DNA of 50,721 nucleotides from Flavobacteriales bacterium (lineage in GTDB: Bacteria > Bacteroidota > Bacteroidia > NS11-12g > UBA955). Every line of letters starts with the position of its first letter. Positions within the stretch are counted from its first letter, which is position 1. The position numbers were made by a program, and so were the translations under genes. Location: assembly GCA_947463095.1 (NCBI GenBank), contig CANHRE010000010.1, positions 1 through 50,721 on the forward strand, read 5' to 3'. The notes under the pieces are model-generated. The model had not been told where the DNA came from. It did no database searches and saw nothing but the letters and a program-made list of their open reading frames with translations. Of the stretch, positions 1,427 through 22,762 are shown in pieces.

Positions 1427-1447
1427 TTAGTGTCATTTATACACTAA
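1427..1447. promoter_or_regulatory. Palindromic operator, probable binding site of the adjacent NrtR-type regulator
   Basis: A perfect 7-base inverted repeat, TTAGTGT-N7-ACACTAA, is seen between the divergent regulator and sugar-kinase genes. Total length is 21 bases, and the A+T-rich arms resemble known NrtR-family operators. It ends 34 bases before the kinase ATG and about 10 bases before a weak -7-like TATCTTG (1458-1464), so a bound protein would cover the -33 region. That geometry fits repression. A further half-site-like TAGTGT lies at 1452-1457. Confidence 0.75.
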
Positions 1448-1481
1448 GAAATAGTGTTATCTTGCAGGCTCATAATTGCTC

Positions 1482-2342
1482 ATGTTACTGATAGCAGACA
1501 GCGGAAGCACAAAGTGCGATTGGGTTATGGTAAGCCCACAGGGTGAGGAACAGAGTTTCCATACCATGGGCTTTAACCCTTTTTTCCACAACACCGGGTT
1601 CATTGCCCAGGAAATCAGGAAAAACACGGACCTCCTGGATCACGCGGCACAAATCAGCGAAGTGTTTTTCTATGGTGCCGGATGCAGCAGCCCGGAGCGC
1701 AATGAAGTACTTGTTGCCGCTCTTCGCGAGGTGTTTCCCGCTGCGGGTGTTACCGTTGACCACGACCTAACCGGCGCGGCCTATGCCACCTGCGGAACAG
1801 AACCTGGCATAGCCTGCATTTTGGGCACTGGCTCCAACAGCTGCTATTTCGACGGCAATCAGCTGCATGAAAAGGTGCCCGCCCTGGGTTATGTGCTTGG
1901 CGATGAAGCCGGCGGAACCTGGTACGGAAAAGAACTGCTGCGCCTGTTTTTGTACAAGGAACTTCCCGAAAACCTGCACAAGGCGTTGGTTGAAGAATAC
2001 GGACTGAGTAAAGAATCCATCTTCGAACACGTGTACAACCTGCCCAATGCCAATGTATATCTGGCCTCCTTCATGCGCTTTCTGAGCAGCAGAAGCCAGG
2101 ATGCCTGGGTGCGCGATTTTATGTACAACGGCTTCAGCAAGTTCATCAACATCCACATTTGGAAATATGAAAACCACCTGGAAGTTCCCGTGCATTTTGT
2201 TGGCTCCGTGGCTTATCACTTTGCTGATTTGCTGCGCGAGGCATGCAAAATCCACCGCCTCCAGGTTGGCGTGATCACCCGTGAACCGGTTAAAAACCTC
2301 GTTCAATACCACCTGAAGAGATCCGGCAGCGTAACGGTTTAA
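1482..2342 (+). CDS. BadF/BadG-type sugar kinase (N-acetylglucosamine kinase-like)
   Basis: The 286-residue protein belongs to the ASKHA superfamily, BadF/BadG/BcrA/BcrD branch. The phosphate-1 loop DSGSTKCDW begins at residue 6, a second phosphate loop GTGSNSC lies near residue 110, and GDEAGGTWYGK near 133 is the segment typical of Bacteroidota GlcNAc-kinase-like proteins. The ATG at 1482 is chosen over the in-frame TTG six bases upstream because it puts the beta-strand LLIADSG directly at the N terminus. It is the first gene of an operon with pgmB (9-base gap) and a GH65 phosphorylase. Phosphorolysis of a glucose disaccharide releases free glucose, so this kinase may act as a glucokinase; GlcNAc is the alternative substrate. 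The substrate is not provable from sequence. Confidence 0.85.
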   Translation: MLLIADSGSTKCDWVMVSPQGEEQSFHTMGFNPFFHNTGFIAQEIRKNTDLLDHAAQISEVFFYGAGCSSPERNEVLVAALREVFPAAGVTVDHDLTGAAYATCGTEPGIACILGTGSNSCYFDGNQLHEKVPALGYVLGDEAGGTWYGKELLRLFLYKELPENLHKALVEEYGLSKESIFEHVYNLPNANVYLASFMRFLSSRSQDAWVRDFMYNGFSKFINIHIWKYENHLEVPVHFVGSVAYHFADLLREACKIHRLQVGVITREPVKNLVQYHLKRSGSVTV

Positions 2343-2351
2343 GCGGGCGTT

Positions 2352-2987
2352 ATGAAGGTGAAAGGCTACATCCTGGATCTGGATGGGGTGATTTGTGATA
2401 CGGCAAGGTTTCATTTTCAGGCCTGGAGCCGTTTGGCGCTGGAATACGGCATTACCCTGAACGATGAAGACCACGAAAAGCTGAAGGGTGTAGACAGGGA
2501 GGGATCCCTGCGCTATATCCTGAACAAGGCCCACATCAGCCCGGAGGCTGATTTACTGCTGCGCGACATGGAGCGCAAGAATGCATGGTACCTGGATATG
2601 GTGGCCCAGATGAGTCCCGCCGACTTGTTCCCAGGCACTCTTGATTTCCTAAGGCAGGCCAAAGAAAACGACATGCGCATTGCCCTGGGTTCTGCCAGCC
2701 GGAACGCCGGATTGGTTTTGAAAAAGCTGAACATCGAACCTTGGTTCGACGCAGTAGTAGATGGCAACATCGTAGAAAACGGCAAACCGCATCCGGAAAC
2801 CTTTCAAAAGGCCGCAACCCTGTTGCACTTGAAGCCGGAAGAATGCATCGTTTTTGAAGATGCTCCATCAGGAATTCAGGCTGCACTGGCAGCCGGTTGC
2901 ATTGCCATAGGCATAGGCAATCCCGATTCGCTCAAAGGAGCCCGCGTGGTATTGCCCTCCCTGGCATCCTTTGTACCCCGTCATTAA
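2352..2987 (+). CDS. pgmB: Beta-phosphoglucomutase
   Basis: This HAD-superfamily enzyme of 211 residues converts beta-glucose 1-phosphate to glucose 6-phosphate in the cytoplasm. The nucleophile and acid/base aspartates are in DLDGV (Asp9 and Asp11, equivalent to Asp8 and Asp10 of the Lactococcus enzyme). The cap-domain segment KGVDREGSL, the GSASRN motif II, the GKPHPE motif III and EDAPSGIQAA motif IV follow in order. Length is typical of the family. The gene lies 9 bases after the kinase and 17 bases before the GH65 gene. The product of GH65 phosphorylases is exactly the beta-glucose 1-phosphate this enzyme uses, so gene order and biochemistry agree. Confidence 0.94.
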   Translation: MKVKGYILDLDGVICDTARFHFQAWSRLALEYGITLNDEDHEKLKGVDREGSLRYILNKAHISPEADLLLRDMERKNAWYLDMVAQMSPADLFPGTLDFLRQAKENDMRIALGSASRNAGLVLKKLNIEPWFDAVVDGNIVENGKPHPETFQKAATLLHLKPEECIVFEDAPSGIQAALAAGCIAIGIGNPDSLKGARVVLPSLASFVPRH

Positions 2988-3004
2988 TACTCAGTTCCCA
3001 CATC

Positions 3005-5320
3005 ATGATTCAATACTTTAAGCACGAGCCCTGGAGTGTAGTTGAAGAGGGGTTCAGCCCGGCCATGCAAGAGGTTGCCGAGAGCGTATGCAGCATTGGC
3101 AACGGCTTCATGGGCCAAAGGGGCAACTTTGAAGAAACTTATTCCGGTAACACCCTGCTGGGAAGCTATATCGGCGGTGTTTATTACCCAGACAAAACCC
3201 GGGTGGGTTGGTGGAAAAATGGTTATCCTGAATACTTCGCCAAAGTGCTGAACAGCACCAACTGGATAGGTCTGTCTATAGAAGTGGAAGGCGAAGTGCT
3301 GGACCTGCATACATGGACCGTGAATCTATTCCGGAGGGAATTAGATATGAAACGCGGCCTGCTGAAACGCAGCTTTACCGCAACATCACCACAAGGCAGG
3401 AGCATAGAGGTAGCGTGTACCCGCTTCTACAGCTTGAAACATCCCGATTTTGCAGCACTGGAATACCAGCTAAAACCTTTGAATTTCTCCGGTTCGGTGC
3501 GCGTGAAGATGTTCAATGACGGCGCCGCACGCAATAAAGACAGCAACTACGAAGAGCTGTTCTGGGAGCCTATTCCCGGGGGAGCACAAACCTTTCAGGA
3601 ACACAGCCTGCTGAGCATGCGCACCAAAAAACTCAACTGGGTACTGAGTACTGCCACCAGAAACCGTTGCAGCCTGAACGGACAAGCCCTGCAAGGCATT
3701 GGCGAGGCAACGGCAGCGCATACCGCACATGTGTTTTCAGCAACGATAAAGCCCGGCGACAGCATGCGCCTGGAAAAATTCACCGTGCTGTGCAGCAACT
3801 TCAGGTACCCTAATGCCGACCCTGCACAAACTGCGGAAGCATTGCTTCAGAATTGCGGGAACACCACCTTTGAAAACCACCTGCTGGAACAGGAACAATC
3901 GTGGGCTGAAATATGGAAACGCAGCGATGTGGTGATTGACGGCGACGTGCCGGCACAACAGGCGGTGCGCTTCAACATCTTCCACCTAAACCAGACCTAT
4001 ACCGGTGCAGACGCCCGCCTGAACATCGGACCTAAGGGATTCACCGGCGAGAAATACGGCGGCAGCACCTACTGGGATACCGAAGCCTATTGCATTCCCT
4101 TCTTTTTACTTTCCGCGCCATCCTCCATCAGCAGACAACTGCTGGAATACCGCCACCGCCAGTTGCCAAAAGCTATTGAAAACGCAACCAAACTGGGTTT
4201 CGAAAAGGGTGCCGCGCTGTTTCCCATGGTCACCATGAATGGCGAAGAATGCCACAATGAATGGGAAATCACCTTTGAAGAAATTCATCGCAACGGCGCT
4301 ATGGCATGGGCCATCCATACCTATATGGAGCACACCGGCGACCGCAGTTATCTGGAAGAAGGCGGGCTGGAAGTACTCATCGCTATTGCGCGGTTCTGGG
4401 CCCAGCGCGTGCACTGGAGCGAGATGAAGCAGCAGTATGTGATGCACGGCGTAACCGGCCCCAACGAATACGAAAACAACGTCAACAATAACTGGTACAC
4501 CAATTACCTGGCCGTATGGTGTATGAATTTCACCATGCGCTGCCTGAGTGAGCTTTCTGCTTCCCATCCAGAGCACTATGCCCAAATCATCCACCTTACA
4601 AACCTGAATACTGAATCGGAACTAGCGAAATGGAAGGAAGTGGCCTCTTCCATGTTCCTGCCCGAGGATGCCAAACGCGGCGTATTTGTGCAGCATGAGG
4701 GCTTCCTCGATAAGGAACTGATGCCTGCTTCTGCGCTGGATAAAAAACACCTACCCCTAAACCAGAAATGGAGTTGGGACCGAATCCTCCGTTCCTGCTT
4801 CATCAAACAGGCCGATGTGCTGCAAGGCATGTACTTCTTCGAAGACCACTTCAGCCTTGACCAGCTGGAACGCAACTTCAGTTTCTACGAGCCTATGACC
4901 GTACATGAAAGCTCCCTTTCTCCCTGTATCCACAGCATACAGGCTTCACGCCTGGGCAGGAAAGAAAAAGCTTATGAGCTTTACCTGCGCACCGCCCGAC
5001 TGGATCTGGACAATTACAACAACGACACGGAAGACGGCCTGCACATTACCAGCATGGCCGGAAGTTATCTGAGCATCGTTCAGGGCTTCGCCGGCGTGCG
5101 CATTCGGCAGGGCGTGCTGCACCTGAACCCCGTGTTGCCCGCCCATTGGAACAGTTGCTCCTTTTCGTTGCTCGTTTCCGGTAATTTAGTGAAGGTATTT
5201 TTCGACCAAAAACAAATACGGATACAAAATCTTGGTACTCAAGCCGTTAAGATCCGTATAAAAAATGAAGAGTCGGTAACATTAGGCCCTGCGGATGTCC
5301 GCTTGTTAAAAGTGGATTGA
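3005..5320 (+). CDS. Glycoside hydrolase family 65 disaccharide phosphorylase (maltose phosphorylase-like)
   Basis: The protein has 771 residues, the usual size for GH65. The ATG at 3005 is chosen because MIQYFKHEPWSVVEEGF matches the family N terminus; an in-frame extension back into pgmB is ignored. The N-terminal beta-sandwich (about 1-270) is followed by an (alpha/alpha)6 barrel and a small C-terminal sheet. The catalytic acid is Glu488 in VTGPNEYENN, at nearly the same position as Glu487 of Lactobacillus brevis maltose phosphorylase. The phosphate-binding segment HESSLSP near residue 634 and KQADVLQGMYF support a phosphorylase rather than a hydrolase. Known GH65 substrates include maltose, trehalose, kojibiose and nigerose; the sequence alone does not choose between them. 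With pgmB and the kinase it forms a complete phosphorolytic module. There is no signal peptide, so the disaccharide must be imported by a transporter outside the operon. Confidence 0.92.
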   Translation: MIQYFKHEPWSVVEEGFSPAMQEVAESVCSIGNGFMGQRGNFEETYSGNTLLGSYIGGVYYPDKTRVGWWKNGYPEYFAKVLNSTNWIGLSIEVEGEVLDLHTWTVNLFRRELDMKRGLLKRSFTATSPQGRSIEVACTRFYSLKHPDFAALEYQLKPLNFSGSVRVKMFNDGAARNKDSNYEELFWEPIPGGAQTFQEHSLLSMRTKKLNWVLSTATRNRCSLNGQALQGIGEATAAHTAHVFSATIKPGDSMRLEKFTVLCSNFRYPNADPAQTAEALLQNCGNTTFENHLLEQEQSWAEIWKRSDVVIDGDVPAQQAVRFNIFHLNQTYTGADARLNIGPKGFTGEKYGGSTYWDTEAYCIPFFLLSAPSSISRQLLEYRHRQLPKAIENATKLGFEKGAALFPMVTMNGEECHNEWEITFEEIHRNGAMAWAIHTYMEHTGDRSYLEEGGLEVLIAIARFWAQRVHWSEMKQQYVMHGVTGPNEYENNVNNNWYTNYLAVWCMNFTMRCLSELSASHPEHYAQIIHLTNLNTESELAKWKEVASSMFLPEDAKRGVFVQHEGFLDKELMPASALDKKHLPLNQKWSWDRILRSCFIKQADVLQGMYFFEDHFSLDQLERNFSFYEPMTVHESSLSPCIHSIQASRLGRKEKAYELYLRTARLDLDNYNNDTEDGLHITSMAGSYLSIVQGFAGVRIRQGVLHLNPVLPAHWNSCSFSLLVSGNLVKVFFDQKQIRIQNLGTQAVKIRIKNEESVTLGPADVRLLKVD

Positions 5321-18044: not shown

Positions 18045-19430
18045 TTATTGATCCCACCAAACGGGCTCCATCAAATTCTGAACAACGGTTGCCTTGGAGT
18101 TGTACAAACGCTCGTCGATAGAGGTTGGCAAACGGCGGGCAATACCGCTCAGGTTTGAGTTCGGGTTTTTCACCAGGGCAGGGATGCCGGTACGGCGCCA
18201 GTCATGGTAGGGCTCCATCATGGTAAAACCAGCCACATATTTATGGGTCATAATTTTATCCTGAGCGATGCTGCCTGCGGTTTCGCTGGCCTGCGCGGCC
18301 ACGTATGCGGGGTCAGCAGCGCCGGTTACCTGGGTCAGGTGTGCCTTGATGGCATCGTTGTGGGCCTTGGCAGCGCGGGCTTTATCGCCCGCCGCCAGTG
18401 CAGCTTCAGCTTCGATGAACATGCTTTCTACATAGGTAGCTAGCGGAGTAACGCTTGAAGGGCTGGCAAAGTAGTTGCCAATTTCAGAAACGTTTTTCAG
18501 GTTGCTGGAACCCAGTGCAGAGCCTTCATAGCGACCGCTGTCGTTTTTGGTGAAGTACGCAGAACGACGTGGGTCGTTGATGGTATTCAGCAAATCTGTG
18601 AAGGTTTTACTGGCTTTGATGTAGTTACGGCGTGACACTTTGCAGAAGGCATACCACTGATTGTACTCGTTAGAGTTGGTACCGAAGATGCAATTGGCAT
18701 CCGCAGCTTCAGAGGTAACACCATAAGCGCGAGCGCTGTCAACAGCTTTCAGCGCATCTGTGTGCCAGGTGCTGTTGCGCTTGCTGGTACGCATGTGGTA
18801 GCGCGCCTTTAGCATGTAGGCCAAACCAATCCATTTTTCATTGTCGCCGCCGTAGATGAAGTCATCGGCGCCGGGTACAATTACATCATCACCTTTGCTG
18901 AGCAGGCTTACACCTTCAGTAAGGAGACTCTGGATGGTTTTCAGCACATCTTCCTGCTTATCATAGGCAGAAGACAGTTGCAGGTCTTCGCCCTTAAGAG
19001 CATCGCTGTAAGGCACATCGCCCCACAGGTCTGACGCAGTGCCAAGCATCATAGCCGTAAGCACGTTGGAGATACCCTGATAGGTAGGATTAGAAGCGCC
19101 GGCCTGGTTTTTCAGGATACGCAGGTTCTTGAGGCCACGGGTGTAGATTACGTCCCATTCGTTGGAGATATCTCCTTCGTCCACCACATATTCATCATTG
19201 GCTTCTGACTGGAACTGTACACCGGCATTTTGCTGTGCCCACATGGAAGTGATACGGCCCAGATTGCCGCCATAGGTGGCAAACACGGACAACTGCGATG
19301 CTGAAAGAATCAGCGGAGGAGTAGCAGCAGAGGGAGCATTCGGTGAAATGTCCTCTCCTTCTACATATTTCTTACATCCTGCTGAGAACAGCAGAACGCC
19401 CATTGCGATAAAAAGGCTTGTCTTTTTCAT
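18045..19430 (-). CDS. SusD/RagB-like nutrient-binding lipoprotein (SusD-like_2 type)
   Basis: The 461-residue protein has a lipoprotein signal peptide ending in SAGC (Cys19). The segments TPPLILSASQLSVFATYGGN, RITSMWAQQNAG and YTRGLKNLRILKNQA are typical of the SusD-like_2 branch, and the helical TPR scaffold follows (MMLGTASDLWGDVPYSDAL, WIGLAYMLKARYHMRTS, YVESMFIEAEAALAAGDKAR). Such proteins form the lid of the SusC barrel and capture ligands at the cell surface. The gene starts 22 bases after the susC stop. No glycoside hydrolase is nearby; an M28 peptidase lies upstream in the same orientation, so peptides are a plausible ligand. Confidence 0.92.
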   Translation of the reverse strand: MKKTSLFIAMGVLLFSAGCKKYVEGEDISPNAPSAATPPLILSASQLSVFATYGGNLGRITSMWAQQNAGVQFQSEANDEYVVDEGDISNEWDVIYTRGLKNLRILKNQAGASNPTYQGISNVLTAMMLGTASDLWGDVPYSDALKGEDLQLSSAYDKQEDVLKTIQSLLTEGVSLLSKGDDVIVPGADDFIYGGDNEKWIGLAYMLKARYHMRTSKRNSTWHTDALKAVDSARAYGVTSEAADANCIFGTNSNEYNQWYAFCKVSRRNYIKASKTFTDLLNTINDPRRSAYFTKNDSGRYEGSALGSSNLKNVSEIGNYFASPSSVTPLATYVESMFIEAEAALAAGDKARAAKAHNDAIKAHLTQVTGAADPAYVAAQASETAGSIAQDKIMTHKYVAGFTMMEPYHDWRRTGIPALVKNPNSNLSGIARRLPTSIDERLYNSKATVVQNLMEPVWWDQ

Positions 19431-19452
19431 AATTTTTGTTCTTGCTACAGGA

Positions 19453-22400
19453 TTAGAAGTTGAATTTCACGTTGGCAATCCATGACTTCATACCGGGGTT
19501 GTTGAAGTAATCAAAACCGCCGATGTTGGAGCCTGCACCTGTGAGTGAAGTTTCGGGGTCAACACCGGTATAGTCGGTGAACAGCAGTACGTTTTTGCCG
19601 GTGATTCCCAGGTCAATGCTCTGGAGGAATTTGTTACCCACCTTCACATTGTAGCTGAGGCCGAGTTCGCGCAGACGCACCCAGCTTCCGTCCTGAATGG
19701 CGTTTTCTGAAGCATAAGCTCCGGCATCGCCCTTGAAGGTACGGAAGTAGTCGTATGCGCTGATTTTGCGGGCATTTGGCTGTCCGTCGCTGGCGCGTAC
19801 ACCTTCAATCAGATATTCGCGGTCGCGGGCTTCAGACTCTTTGGTACGGCCGAGCTGCATCATGCGGCCCCAGGTTCCGTTCCAGATTTCGCCACCTTCG
19901 CGTACATCCCAAAGGAAGGTCAGGTTAACACCTTTGTAGCTCAGGGTATTGCGCAGGCCACCATACCACTTGGGATAGGGGCTTCCGATACGTCCGCGCT
20001 TAGGGTCAACCAGAGGAAGACCGTTGGCTCCGATCAGCAGCTGACCTGCTTCGTTGCGGCGCCACTTGGTTCCGTAGATTACGCCGTAAGGCTCACCTAC
20101 GATGGCATAAGAGCCGTTAGAGGCAAATGCAGCTTCAGTGCTGATTTCGTCCACACCGGGAGCCAATTTCAGAACTTCGTTCCTGTTAGATGCCCAGTTC
20201 AGGTTAATATCCCAGGTGAATTTGTCAGATTTAATAGGAGTAGCGCCGATTACCAGCTCGATACCCTTGTTCTGCATCTCGCCGGCGTTCTGTACTACGC
20301 TGCTGTAACCTGTGGAAGGTGCCAGCGGCATGCCGAGGATGATGTTGGTTGATTTCTGATTGTACAGGGTTACGTCCAGGCTGGCACGACCTTTCAGGAA
20401 GCGGAGGTCAAATCCGATTTCCATACCGGTGTTGCGCTCTGGCTCCAGGGCGCTGTTACCCAGTCCGTTGCTCTGACCGAAACCGTTCATGCCCAGGTAA
20501 GGGAAATTCAGACCTGAAGTGAAACCATCGGTGAACGTGGGCTGAGTGAAGTAGGTACGGGTAGCATATGCAGGGGGGTTGATACCGGCCTGTGCATAAG
20601 CAATACGCATTTTACCGTAGCTCAGGATGTCGTTTGAACCGATGGCCTCGGTAAATACGAATGAAGCGTTGGCAGAGGGGTAGAAGAAGCTGCTCTTGGC
20701 GGTACCGAAGGTAGAAGCCCATTCGTTACGGCCGGTTACGTTCAGGTAAAGCATGCTCTTATACGACAGTTCTGCGTTCAGGTACAGGGCTGCGGTCTTA
20801 ACACGACCGGTACCGGAGCTGGCATACAAATTAGAAGCATTGCTCATGTTGTAGAAATCAGGAATAGCCAGATCACGGCCACGCAGGTATTGATCTGAGC
20901 TGAAGCGGTTGTTCAGGTTGTTACCCAGAATCACGTTCAGGTTCAGGTCTTCATTCAGTTCGCGACGGGCGGTAATCAGCAGGTCGCTGTAGAATTCCTT
21001 GTAGCGCTGGATGTTCTCATTGATTTCTCCACCGGGAGCGTTATCGGGCTGGTTAGAACCAACGGCAAAGATTTGCTTGCGGCTATCGGTGTACTGGTCA
21101 ATACCTACGCGGTATGTTACGTCCAGCCAGTCCAGAGGACGGTAGGTGATGTAGGTGTTTCCGAGAATACGGTTCACGTCGTCGGTGAATGGATTCTCAT
21201 AACATGACCAGTAAGGGTTGTCATAGAAAGGAAGATAAGTATAGTTGCTTCCGTCAGGGTTTTTCCAGAAATCTTCACCCTGGCCACCGCGCAGGTTGAA
21301 GTCAACGGGGCTGCGAAGAATGGACAGCATCACACCGGAGAGGTTACTTCCGTTTTGTGCCCTGGTTCCACCGCTGTTGATGAAGTTGATGGAGCTTCCG
21401 AAGCTGATCTTGCTGGTCAGACGGGTATCGGTGTTTACACGTACGCTGGTACGCTTGAATTCCGTATTCGGAACGATACCAGTTTGGCGAAGGTTTCCAA
21501 TAGAGGCACGAACGGTTGTGCGCTCACCACCTGCGTTGAATGACAGGTTATTGTTGTATGCTACACCGGTCTGGAAGAAATCCTTCATGTTGTCAATAGG
21601 ATTGGCAACCTTGGGACCCCAGCTGGCAGGTGTGCCCGGGTTGGAAGTACCGGCATCTACGATGGTCCATCCGGGAGGAACTACGCCGGCATAAGCCCTG
21701 CGTACACCTGCAGAGTCGATAGAACGACCGCCACCAGTAGCACCCTGACCGTAGGTCATTTGGATTTCAGGCAGTTTGTTCACCTTGCTCCATTCTACTG
21801 AGCTGGAGAAGGTAGCACTGAAGTTCTTGCCTCCGCGTCCGGCTTTGCCGCGCTTGGTGGTAATGATGATGGCACCGTTGGCACCGCGCACACCGTACAA
21901 TGCAGCAGCAGCAGGGCCTTTCAGCACGTTGATGCTTTCTACGTCGTCGGGGTTTATGTCCACACCGCGGTTTGACTGGTTTACCCCTTGTAGGTTCATG
22001 TTGAAGGGATAGTCACCGGCCGTGGTTTGTGACGTACTGTTGTCAATTGGCACACCGTCAACCACCATCAAAGGCTGGTTATTGCCATTGAAGGTAGCAT
22101 TACCGCGAAGGATGATTTTCGCAGATGCACCGGGCGTTCCGCCGGAACCCTGTACGAAGGCACCGGCCACCTTAGAGCTGATGGCCTGTACTACGTTCTG
22201 TTCGCCGGAACCGGCAATCTCCTTACCGGAAACGTTCTGCGTGGCGTAACCCAAAGCACGTTGCTGACGGCTGATGCCCAGCGCAGTGATGGTGATTGTG
22301 CTCATCCCTACCGGATCTTCTTCCATGGTAACATCCAAACGGTCGGAGCCCGAAGGAATGTCAGAAGAAAGAGCCTTGTAGTTGTTCAACAAGAACACAA

Positions 22401-22623
22401 TCTGCTTAGCGGATTGTGGTGCATTGATGGCATAACGTCCTTCGTTATCAGTAAAGGTTGAAATATTGGTACCTTTAACCGTTACCGAAACGTTTGCCAG
22501 AGAACCCTGATCCTTAGCGGATTTCACAGTTCCCACGATGAGTCGGGTCTGAGCCCAGGCGTTTAACGCGCTGAAAGCCCCGATCAACATCACCGCTTTG
22601 AGAAGTGGTTTGAAATTCTTCAT
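19453..22623 (-). CDS. SusC/RagA family TonB-linked outer-membrane transporter
   Basis: The protein has 1056 residues from the ATG at 22623, which directly precedes the signal peptide (MKNFKPLLKAVMLIGAFSAL, then NAWAQ). An N-terminal carboxypeptidase-D-like domain (GTVKSAKDQGSLANVSVTVK) leads to the plug domain with the SusC signature VNVLKGPAAAALYGVRGANG followed by AIIITTKRGK. The 22-strand barrel runs to the terminal aromatic NVKFNF. It works with the SusD-like lipoprotein and TonB-ExbBD to import bound ligands. The longer in-frame reading from 22701 is rejected because it puts 26 unrelated residues before the signal peptide. Confidence 0.95.
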   Translation of the reverse strand: MKNFKPLLKAVMLIGAFSALNAWAQTRLIVGTVKSAKDQGSLANVSVTVKGTNISTFTDNEGRYAINAPQSAKQIVFLLNNYKALSSDIPSGSDRLDVTMEEDPVGMSTITITALGISRQQRALGYATQNVSGKEIAGSGEQNVVQAISSKVAGAFVQGSGGTPGASAKIILRGNATFNGNNQPLMVVDGVPIDNSTSQTTAGDYPFNMNLQGVNQSNRGVDINPDDVESINVLKGPAAAALYGVRGANGAIIITTKRGKAGRGGKNFSATFSSSVEWSKVNKLPEIQMTYGQGATGGGRSIDSAGVRRAYAGVVPPGWTIVDAGTSNPGTPASWGPKVANPIDNMKDFFQTGVAYNNNLSFNAGGERTTVRASIGNLRQTGIVPNTEFKRTSVRVNTDTRLTSKISFGSSINFINSGGTRAQNGSNLSGVMLSILRSPVDFNLRGGQGEDFWKNPDGSNYTYLPFYDNPYWSCYENPFTDDVNRILGNTYITYRPLDWLDVTYRVGIDQYTDSRKQIFAVGSNQPDNAPGGEINENIQRYKEFYSDLLITARRELNEDLNLNVILGNNLNNRFSSDQYLRGRDLAIPDFYNMSNASNLYASSGTGRVKTAALYLNAELSYKSMLYLNVTGRNEWASTFGTAKSSFFYPSANASFVFTEAIGSNDILSYGKMRIAYAQAGINPPAYATRTYFTQPTFTDGFTSGLNFPYLGMNGFGQSNGLGNSALEPERNTGMEIGFDLRFLKGRASLDVTLYNQKSTNIILGMPLAPSTGYSSVVQNAGEMQNKGIELVIGATPIKSDKFTWDINLNWASNRNEVLKLAPGVDEISTEAAFASNGSYAIVGEPYGVIYGTKWRRNEAGQLLIGANGLPLVDPKRGRIGSPYPKWYGGLRNTLSYKGVNLTFLWDVREGGEIWNGTWGRMMQLGRTKESEARDREYLIEGVRASDGQPNARKISAYDYFRTFKGDAGAYASENAIQDGSWVRLRELGLSYNVKVGNKFLQSIDLGITGKNVLLFTDYTGVDPETSLTGAGSNIGGFDYFNNPGMKSWIANVKFNF

Positions 22624-22653
22624 AGGCGTGTTGTTTTTATAGGTATTGGGCGA

Positions 22654-22684
22654 CAATCTTAAACCATTCATCCTGAAAAAACAA
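22654..22684 (-). promoter_or_regulatory. Candidate promoter of the SusCD pair
   Basis: On the minus strand, TTG (22684-22682) and TAAGATTG (22661-22654) are 20 bases apart. The second matches TAnnTTTG at all but one base. The leader to the susC ATG would be about 30 bases. Confidence 0.35.
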
Positions 22685-22762
22685 CTTTCTAACGTCACCA
22701 ACTTGTGGTCTGTCGAATTTAATGTACAGAATATTTCAAGATAAAATCGCGGCTAGTACCCA

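Follow-up and report, generated by a model that had tools for sequence, protein, structure and literature searches.

The window, as we call the whole stretch of 50,721 nucleotides analysed here, quite likely carries, as far as sequence comparisons can tell, a transcriptional repressor of the NrtR family that acts on the catabolism of alpha-glucans and glucose, along with one of the operons it targets. The first-pass annotation had described an NrtR-type regulator divergent from a kinase-pgmB-GH65 operon (1482-5320, forward strand) with a perfect 7-7-7 palindrome between them, and both the gene arrangement and the palindrome are present as described (Table 1). The window is part of contig C10 in a draft genome of 2.6 Mb (96% complete). 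We searched for the regulator in 108 genomes of its order and in a named genome collection; its named relatives come from uncultured Bacteroidota MAGs and, more distantly, from Cryomorphaceae and Crocinitomicaceae.

Table 1. Coordinates of the regulator gene, the operator and the divergent operon in the window.
Feature	Position	Strand	Basis
NrtR-family regulator, 257 aa	574..1347	-	Pfam domains, best solved relative, predicted fold
Operator TTAGTGTCATTTATACACTAA (TTAGTGT, spacer CATTTAT, ACACTAA)	1427..1447	.	Perfect palindrome, conserved in orthologous intergenic regions
Probable -7 box TATCTTGC of the kinase operon	1458..1465	+	Inferred from a conserved TATCTTGC-like box in the window's family
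BadF/NagK-type sugar kinase, 286 aa, probable glucokinase	1482..2342	+	Domain matches, gene context
Beta-phosphoglucomutase (pgmB), 211 aa	2352..2987	+	TIGR01990, 204.1 bits (above cut-off 189.4)
GH65 glycoside phosphorylase, 771 aa, probably maltose phosphorylase	3005..5320	+	Pfam GH65 N, M and C domains

The regulator is composed of a Nudix-like domain (residues ~9-153) and an NrtR/AraR winged helix (~169-239), with Pfam matches to PF21906 (6.7e-29), PF19368 (1e-13) and PF00293 (1.4e-07). Its closest solved relative is the Bacteroides arabinose repressor BtAraR (5bs6, 2e-43), and the predicted fold (pLDDT 85) retrieved AraR (5bs6 first) and NrtR as top Foldseek matches. The Nudix-like N-terminus followed by an NrtR winged-helix C-terminus, the impaired Nudix box (in alignments the box Gly is D51 and the two catalytic Glu are V66 and L70) and the 21-bp palindromic operator near its putative targets all agree with the NrtR family in the broad sense. 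Results were different for each of the characterized groups. The residues for ADP-ribose of NrtR sensu stricto are missing and no NAD biosynthesis gene is among the targets found; D51 and L52 replace Gly48 and Phe49 of AraR, and the protein is placed outside the AraR clade (support 100); no xylA or xylB lies near the loci of its own clade, hereafter clade A, and XylR (the BT0791 group) forms a separate clade. In addition, a Pfam search of the regulator found neither the RpiR-type HTH nor the SIS domain of HexR/RccR. In the tree, clade A stands apart from AraR and XylR with moderate support (SH-aLRT 90, against 100 for the XylR branch). We conclude that the regulator groups with AraR and XylR in the sugar-sensing part of the NrtR family, in a clade of its own, and that it is neither NrtR sensu stricto, nor AraR, nor XylR.

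One palindrome alone could be chance, but its conservation is not. The operator is the sole match in the window even when 3 mismatches are allowed, while shuffles of the window gave 1.28 matches at up to 3 mismatches. Of 76 non-redundant intergenic regions between divergent Nudix and kinase genes, 72 contain the exact core GTGT-N7-ACAC and the other 4 miss one base; these loci came from overlapping collections and were deduplicated by sequence, but they are still related, so that the 76 do not represent independent events. The first-pass annotation had staked its proposal on the palindrome recurring upstream of orthologous operons, and the proposal passed with this count. In 151-bp segments the core was present in 73/76, compared to a mean of 0.13 in dinucleotide shuffles, and spacings from 3 to 12 other than 7 gave it in 0 to 10 of the 76. 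The window's own genome contains five operator-like sites at no more than 1 mismatch, versus 1 for a reversed-pattern control. Across the order, the same count showed no enrichment over its control in most genomes, because the outer bases of the operator vary; the informative test is the 8-base core plus its position.

We also looked at how the operator is positioned relative to the promoters. A sigma-70-style promoter scan gave no match; Bacteroidota promoters follow another consensus, with TAnnTTTG as the -7 element. Among the aligned promoters, those of the window's family share a conserved TATCTTGC box ~10 bp downstream of the operator, which would then cover the place expected for the -33 element. 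In genus g15 of family f2, the right arm of the operator continues into TAAGTTTG, and in Crocinitomicaceae-type loci a TATATTTG-like box is found directly upstream of the operator, which covers the expected start site. The -7 box is therefore downstream of the operator, overlapping it or just upstream of it in three lineages. As an activator usually needs a fixed geometry and a blocker does not, these three arrangements favour repression over activation, as shown for AraR, and we infer that the regulator blocks rather than activates at the operon.

Which genes, other than the divergent operon, may be controlled by the regulator? A pattern search of the window's own genome revealed a site 43 bp before a SusC-SusD-SusE-like set (L007), one preceding a CBM20 protein and an alpha-amylase (L008), one before a threonine-aldolase-type gene and one before pckA, which is considered below. 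The SusC and threonine-aldolase-type sites are also found in a second genome of the genus. We note that the threonine-aldolase-type gene, which carries a site in both genomes, is a poor fit to a glucose regulon. In relatives, the site is upstream of an MFS sugar transporter, of a starch-binding protein with an amylase and of SusC/amylase pairs; in lineages without GH65, the regulator and the kinase are accompanied by phosphofructokinase, GAPDH, phosphoglucose isomerase, GH31 or a zwf-pgl-edd-eda operon. In the loci of clade A, the gene start has the exact core nearby for the kinase in 74/92, pfkA in 11/11, the starch-binding protein in 5/7, the amylase in 5/15, MFS in 8/37, gap in 2/3 and zwf in 3/13, while the inside-gene control gave 0 for all seven and 1 for SusC. 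Upstream of many of the pckA, zwf, MFS and amylase genes from clade-A genomes or loci, the exact core is missing, suggesting that the regulon differs from lineage to lineage. One gene that by eye was taken for pgi (L205:3152-4774) was rejected, being an aldehyde dehydrogenase. Restricting the regulator to disaccharide phosphorolysis, as was initially proposed, is thus too narrow, considering that the site precedes SusCD, amylase, MFS, pfkA, gap, zwf-pgl-edd-eda and pckA. The presence of the site upstream of starch, transporter, glycolytic and Entner-Doudoroff genes and of pckA points to a regulon of glucose and alpha-glucan metabolism; most likely, the regulator represses alpha-glucan and glucose catabolism, of which maltose phosphorolysis would be one branch.

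The pckA site deserves a separate description. It lies ~180 bp before pckA in the window's own genome (L005), and the core precedes pckA by 169-187 bp in 25 of the 42 genomes that have the regulator, versus 3 of the 29 without a full copy (Fisher p 2e-5, an optimistic value as the genomes are related). The 3 exceptions belong to regulator-bearing genera and have either an incomplete genome or a truncated copy of the regulator. As the -7 box of pckA is some 25-40 bp before the start codon, the operator would be ~140 bp upstream of the promoter. Simple blocking is unlikely at this distance, and activation in absence of glucose, or looping, is our guess. A divergent PAP2-family gene shares its first codons with the site in the window's family and could be a further target. 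Coding constraint (SVKxTL) as the sole cause of the site was rejected, because in family f2 the site is intergenic at an equal distance from pckA.

We then asked what the regulator may sense, taking the sugar contacts of AraR and the ADP-ribose contacts of NrtR from the published structures (PMC4666351) and judging the pocket by alignment only. Across 106 orthologues, R86 and H131 are kept in 106/106 and R34 in 96, its equivalent being Gln or Ser in the other 10. The place of AraR Gly48, the Nudix-box Gly, is occupied by Asp or Asn in 106/106, a feature also seen in paralogue group B. The NrtR nucleotide contacts N43, K76 and R98 correspond to L34, L70 and E107 in the window regulator. Considering that the AraR sugar residues are kept, that the ADP-ribose contacts are lost and that the pocket Asp/Asn is fixed, free D-glucose is the favoured effector, with chances that we estimate as about even; a sugar phosphate or glucose 1-phosphate looks less likely. 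A new effector specificity within the NrtR family is probable. D-xylose and D-glucose differ in the C6 hydroxymethyl. The Gly48 place is Ser in XylR (three XylR sequences compared) and Asp/Asn in clade A; therefore, this residue could hold the extra hydroxyl of glucose, and we hypothesize that one residue (Gly, Ser or Asp/Asn at AraR position 48) may set the choice of sugar.

The candidate targets also match those of HexR/RccR (zwf, edd, gap, the kinase and pckA), and the protein could, as do HexR/RccR or FruR, regulate central carbon metabolism in response to a phosphorylated intermediate (G6P, KDPG or fructose 1,6-bisphosphate). This seems rather doubtful, however, as the contacts with which NrtR binds phosphate are not retained, the pocket has a fixed acidic or amide residue and the AraR residues that bind the hydroxyls of free arabinose are kept.

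Among the enzymes of the operon, the nearest solved protein of the GH65 enzyme is the maltose phosphorylase 1h54 (6.5e-216, compared to 2.4e-112 for kojibiose phosphorylase), and its domains together with this nearest characterized protein suggest a maltose phosphorylase. For the kinase, the closest named solved relatives are GlcNAc/MurNAc kinases and not glucokinases. It always adjoins the regulator and is accompanied by glycolytic genes in relatives, and its neighbour genes are those of a glucokinase. Moreover, neither a ROK (PF00480) nor a Glk (PF02685) kinase was found in its own 96% complete draft genome, which fits the assignment as a probable glucokinase without thereby proving the substrate. 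The route from a disaccharide to glucose 6-phosphate with one ATP, put forward by the first-pass annotation, appears right: each maltose would yield two G6P for one ATP. In the window's order, the regulator is mostly adjoined by kinase-pgmB-GH65, and its targets in the own genome are mostly starch genes, as would be expected from a dedicated maltose/maltodextrin regulator sensing maltose or beta-glucose 1-phosphate. We consider this unlikely, since several orthologues adjoin the kinase with GH65 altogether absent: where GH65 or pgmB is missing, regulator, kinase and operator are retained and the predicted control extends to pfkA, gap or zwf-edd. In addition, pckA is linked to the regulator, and a pocket of the AraR type, being small, suits a monosaccharide.

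As the genome encodes two NrtR-type proteins, the second on contig C4, the operator might be bound by this paralogue, the window's regulator acting elsewhere. According to the structure of AraR with DNA (PMC4666351), it is Lys179 that reads the leading G of GTGT. Among the 106 orthologues, the AraR DNA-contact residues D178, R180 and N181 are invariant, and position 179 is Lys or Arg in 104/106. On the contrary, four order-level paralogues have Val or Thr at 179 and sites nearby that read TTGT-N7-ACAA; the paralogue on contig C4 is one with Thr179 and adjoins such a site, while the window's regulator has Lys, like AraR for GTGT. GTGT sites also lie near several K179 proteins from other groups, and a Bacteroides-type XylR with Val179 has a TTGT site; one XylR with Ile179 and a GTGT site is the single exception to this pairing. 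Since residue 179 tracks the operator half-site, the window's operator most likely belongs to the window's regulator, and the operator accompanies this type of regulator in 76 loci; binding by the paralogue instead is very improbable. This covariation between residue 179 and the leading base of the half-site could be useful for predicting the operators of the many unassigned Nudix regulators. Finally, that the regulator senses ADP-ribose and couples the NAD state to sugar use is hardly credible: besides the family name, it is suggested by an NCBIfam match to the ADP-ribose-responsive model whose 137 bits are far under the curated cut-off of 400, while the NrtR contacts N43, K76 and R98 are replaced and no NAD gene is among the targets found.

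We therefore return to a glucose-responsive repressor as the preferred reading. In this model, the apo-dimer would occupy the operator over the kinase promoter and block RNA polymerase, and may also limit the divergent gene of the regulator itself. Import of starch or maltose would yield cytoplasmic D-glucose through maltose phosphorylase or alpha-glucosidases; D-glucose would then bind the pocket (R32, R89, H150 and D51), and the regulator would leave the DNA, as AraR does with L-arabinose. The operon would convert maltose and Pi to glucose and beta-G1P, and the mutase and the kinase would bring both to G6P at the cost of one ATP. At pckA, the regulator may work in another way, perhaps as an activator of gluconeogenesis in the absence of glucose. 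Glucose as effector and the action at pckA are the least certain parts of the model.

Global central carbon regulators are known in Proteobacteria, namely HexR, FruR, CceR and GluR (PMC5507952), while no comparable regulator for these Bacteroidota was found in the literature searched. On NrtR/Nudix regulators of maltose, starch or glucose, the search returned only AraR/XylR papers, most subscription journals lying outside it. From its distribution and predicted targets, the regulator is probably a master switch of glucose metabolism across many Bacteroidota. Tentatively, clade A as a whole might be a glucose-sensing central carbon regulator in a large part of this phylum, repressing starch uptake, glycolysis and the Entner-Doudoroff pathway, with the distant pckA site switching gluconeogenesis oppositely. 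If true, clade A would be a functional counterpart of HexR/FruR/CceR derived from a Nudix enzyme. Glucose sensing would also add a hexose to the ADP-ribose and pentoses recognized in the NrtR family and offer a one-residue hypothesis for retuning a nucleotide-hydrolase pocket to different sugars. With a conserved regulator that has a clear operator, many predicted targets and a candidate effector, the control of glucose and starch use would become directly testable in abundant aquatic Bacteroidota.

Among known systems, BtAraR (BT0354; PDB 5bs6, 5deq; PMC4666351), the L-arabinose repressor, is the best match in both sequence and fold and shares the two-domain architecture, the impaired Nudix box, the GTGT-N7-ACAC geometry and the sugar contacts R34, R86 and H131. 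It differs in having Gly48 and Phe49 instead of Asp/Asn and Leu, in lacking an insertion of ~18 residues before the V92 strand, and in controlling arabinose instead of the predicted glucose/starch regulon. The Bacteroides xylose regulator XylR (BT0791 group; PMC3878776, PMC4666351), represented here by sequences picked for their xylA/xylB context and not by the BT0791 record, has in common the pocket Leu and the loop insertion, but it forms a separate clade, carries Ser at the Gly48 place and Val or Ile at 179, and sits with xylA/xylB. The ADP-ribose-responsive NAD regulator NrtR of Shewanella (PDB 3gz5, 3gz6, 3gz8) shares the fold and the operator class, while the window regulator has lost the nucleotide and phosphate contacts and has no NAD genes among the targets found. 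The maltose phosphorylase (1h54) and beta-phosphoglucomutase systems of lactobacilli share the GH65 match and the operon logic from maltose to G6P; here, the kinase of the operon is BadF/NagK-type and the control would be of the NrtR type. HexR and RccR of Proteobacteria (RpiR family; PMC5507952, PMC5489143) resemble it in their targets, since in relatives its site is found at zwf, edd, gap, the glucokinase-like kinase and pckA, but they belong to an unrelated protein family, and the regulator described here adds starch-uptake genes and probably responds to a free sugar.

The draft genome also encodes a second NrtR-type paralogue of the window regulator, and at its locus a perfect TTATTGT-N7-ACAATAA palindrome lies 12 bp upstream of a glycoside-hydrolase-like gene; this paralogue probably controls another glucan locus. 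Within the window itself, a pattern search found no good copy of the GTGT-N7-ACAC operator at the SusC/SusD-like pair, which by this search would fall outside the operator regulon.

Intact GTGT-N7-ACAC sites also accompany other NrtR-type clades (loci L271, L275, L277 and L279), and three of these four carry a tandem pair of sites, spaced by about 50 bp, directly before the regulator. At two loci the clade A regulator, orthologous to that of the window, is adjoined by a fast-evolving second Nudix-type copy, placed immediately before it in L206. The operator was observed upstream of a threonine-aldolase/GntG-type PLP gene in two genomes of the window's genus.

In the window's family, a divergently oriented PAP2-family gene contains the pckA-linked operator in its initial codons, where the site encodes the peptide SVKxTL. 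A second conserved element, TGTGCGTAA-like, is found about 75-100 bp upstream of pckA in several genera (loci L102-L143), between the operator and the promoter, and is possibly the site of another regulator.

Coordinates of the features discussed
Feature	Location	Remark
SusC/SusD-like pair	window 18045-22701	
Second NrtR-type paralogue	own-genome contig C4:522-1310 (locus L096 1-1310)	Thr at base-reading position
Second Nudix-type copy	L206 1000-1710; L288 5978	
pckA-linked operator	L102 1302-1322	and equivalents
Threonine-aldolase/GntG-type gene	L006 5321-6440; L302 2378-3487
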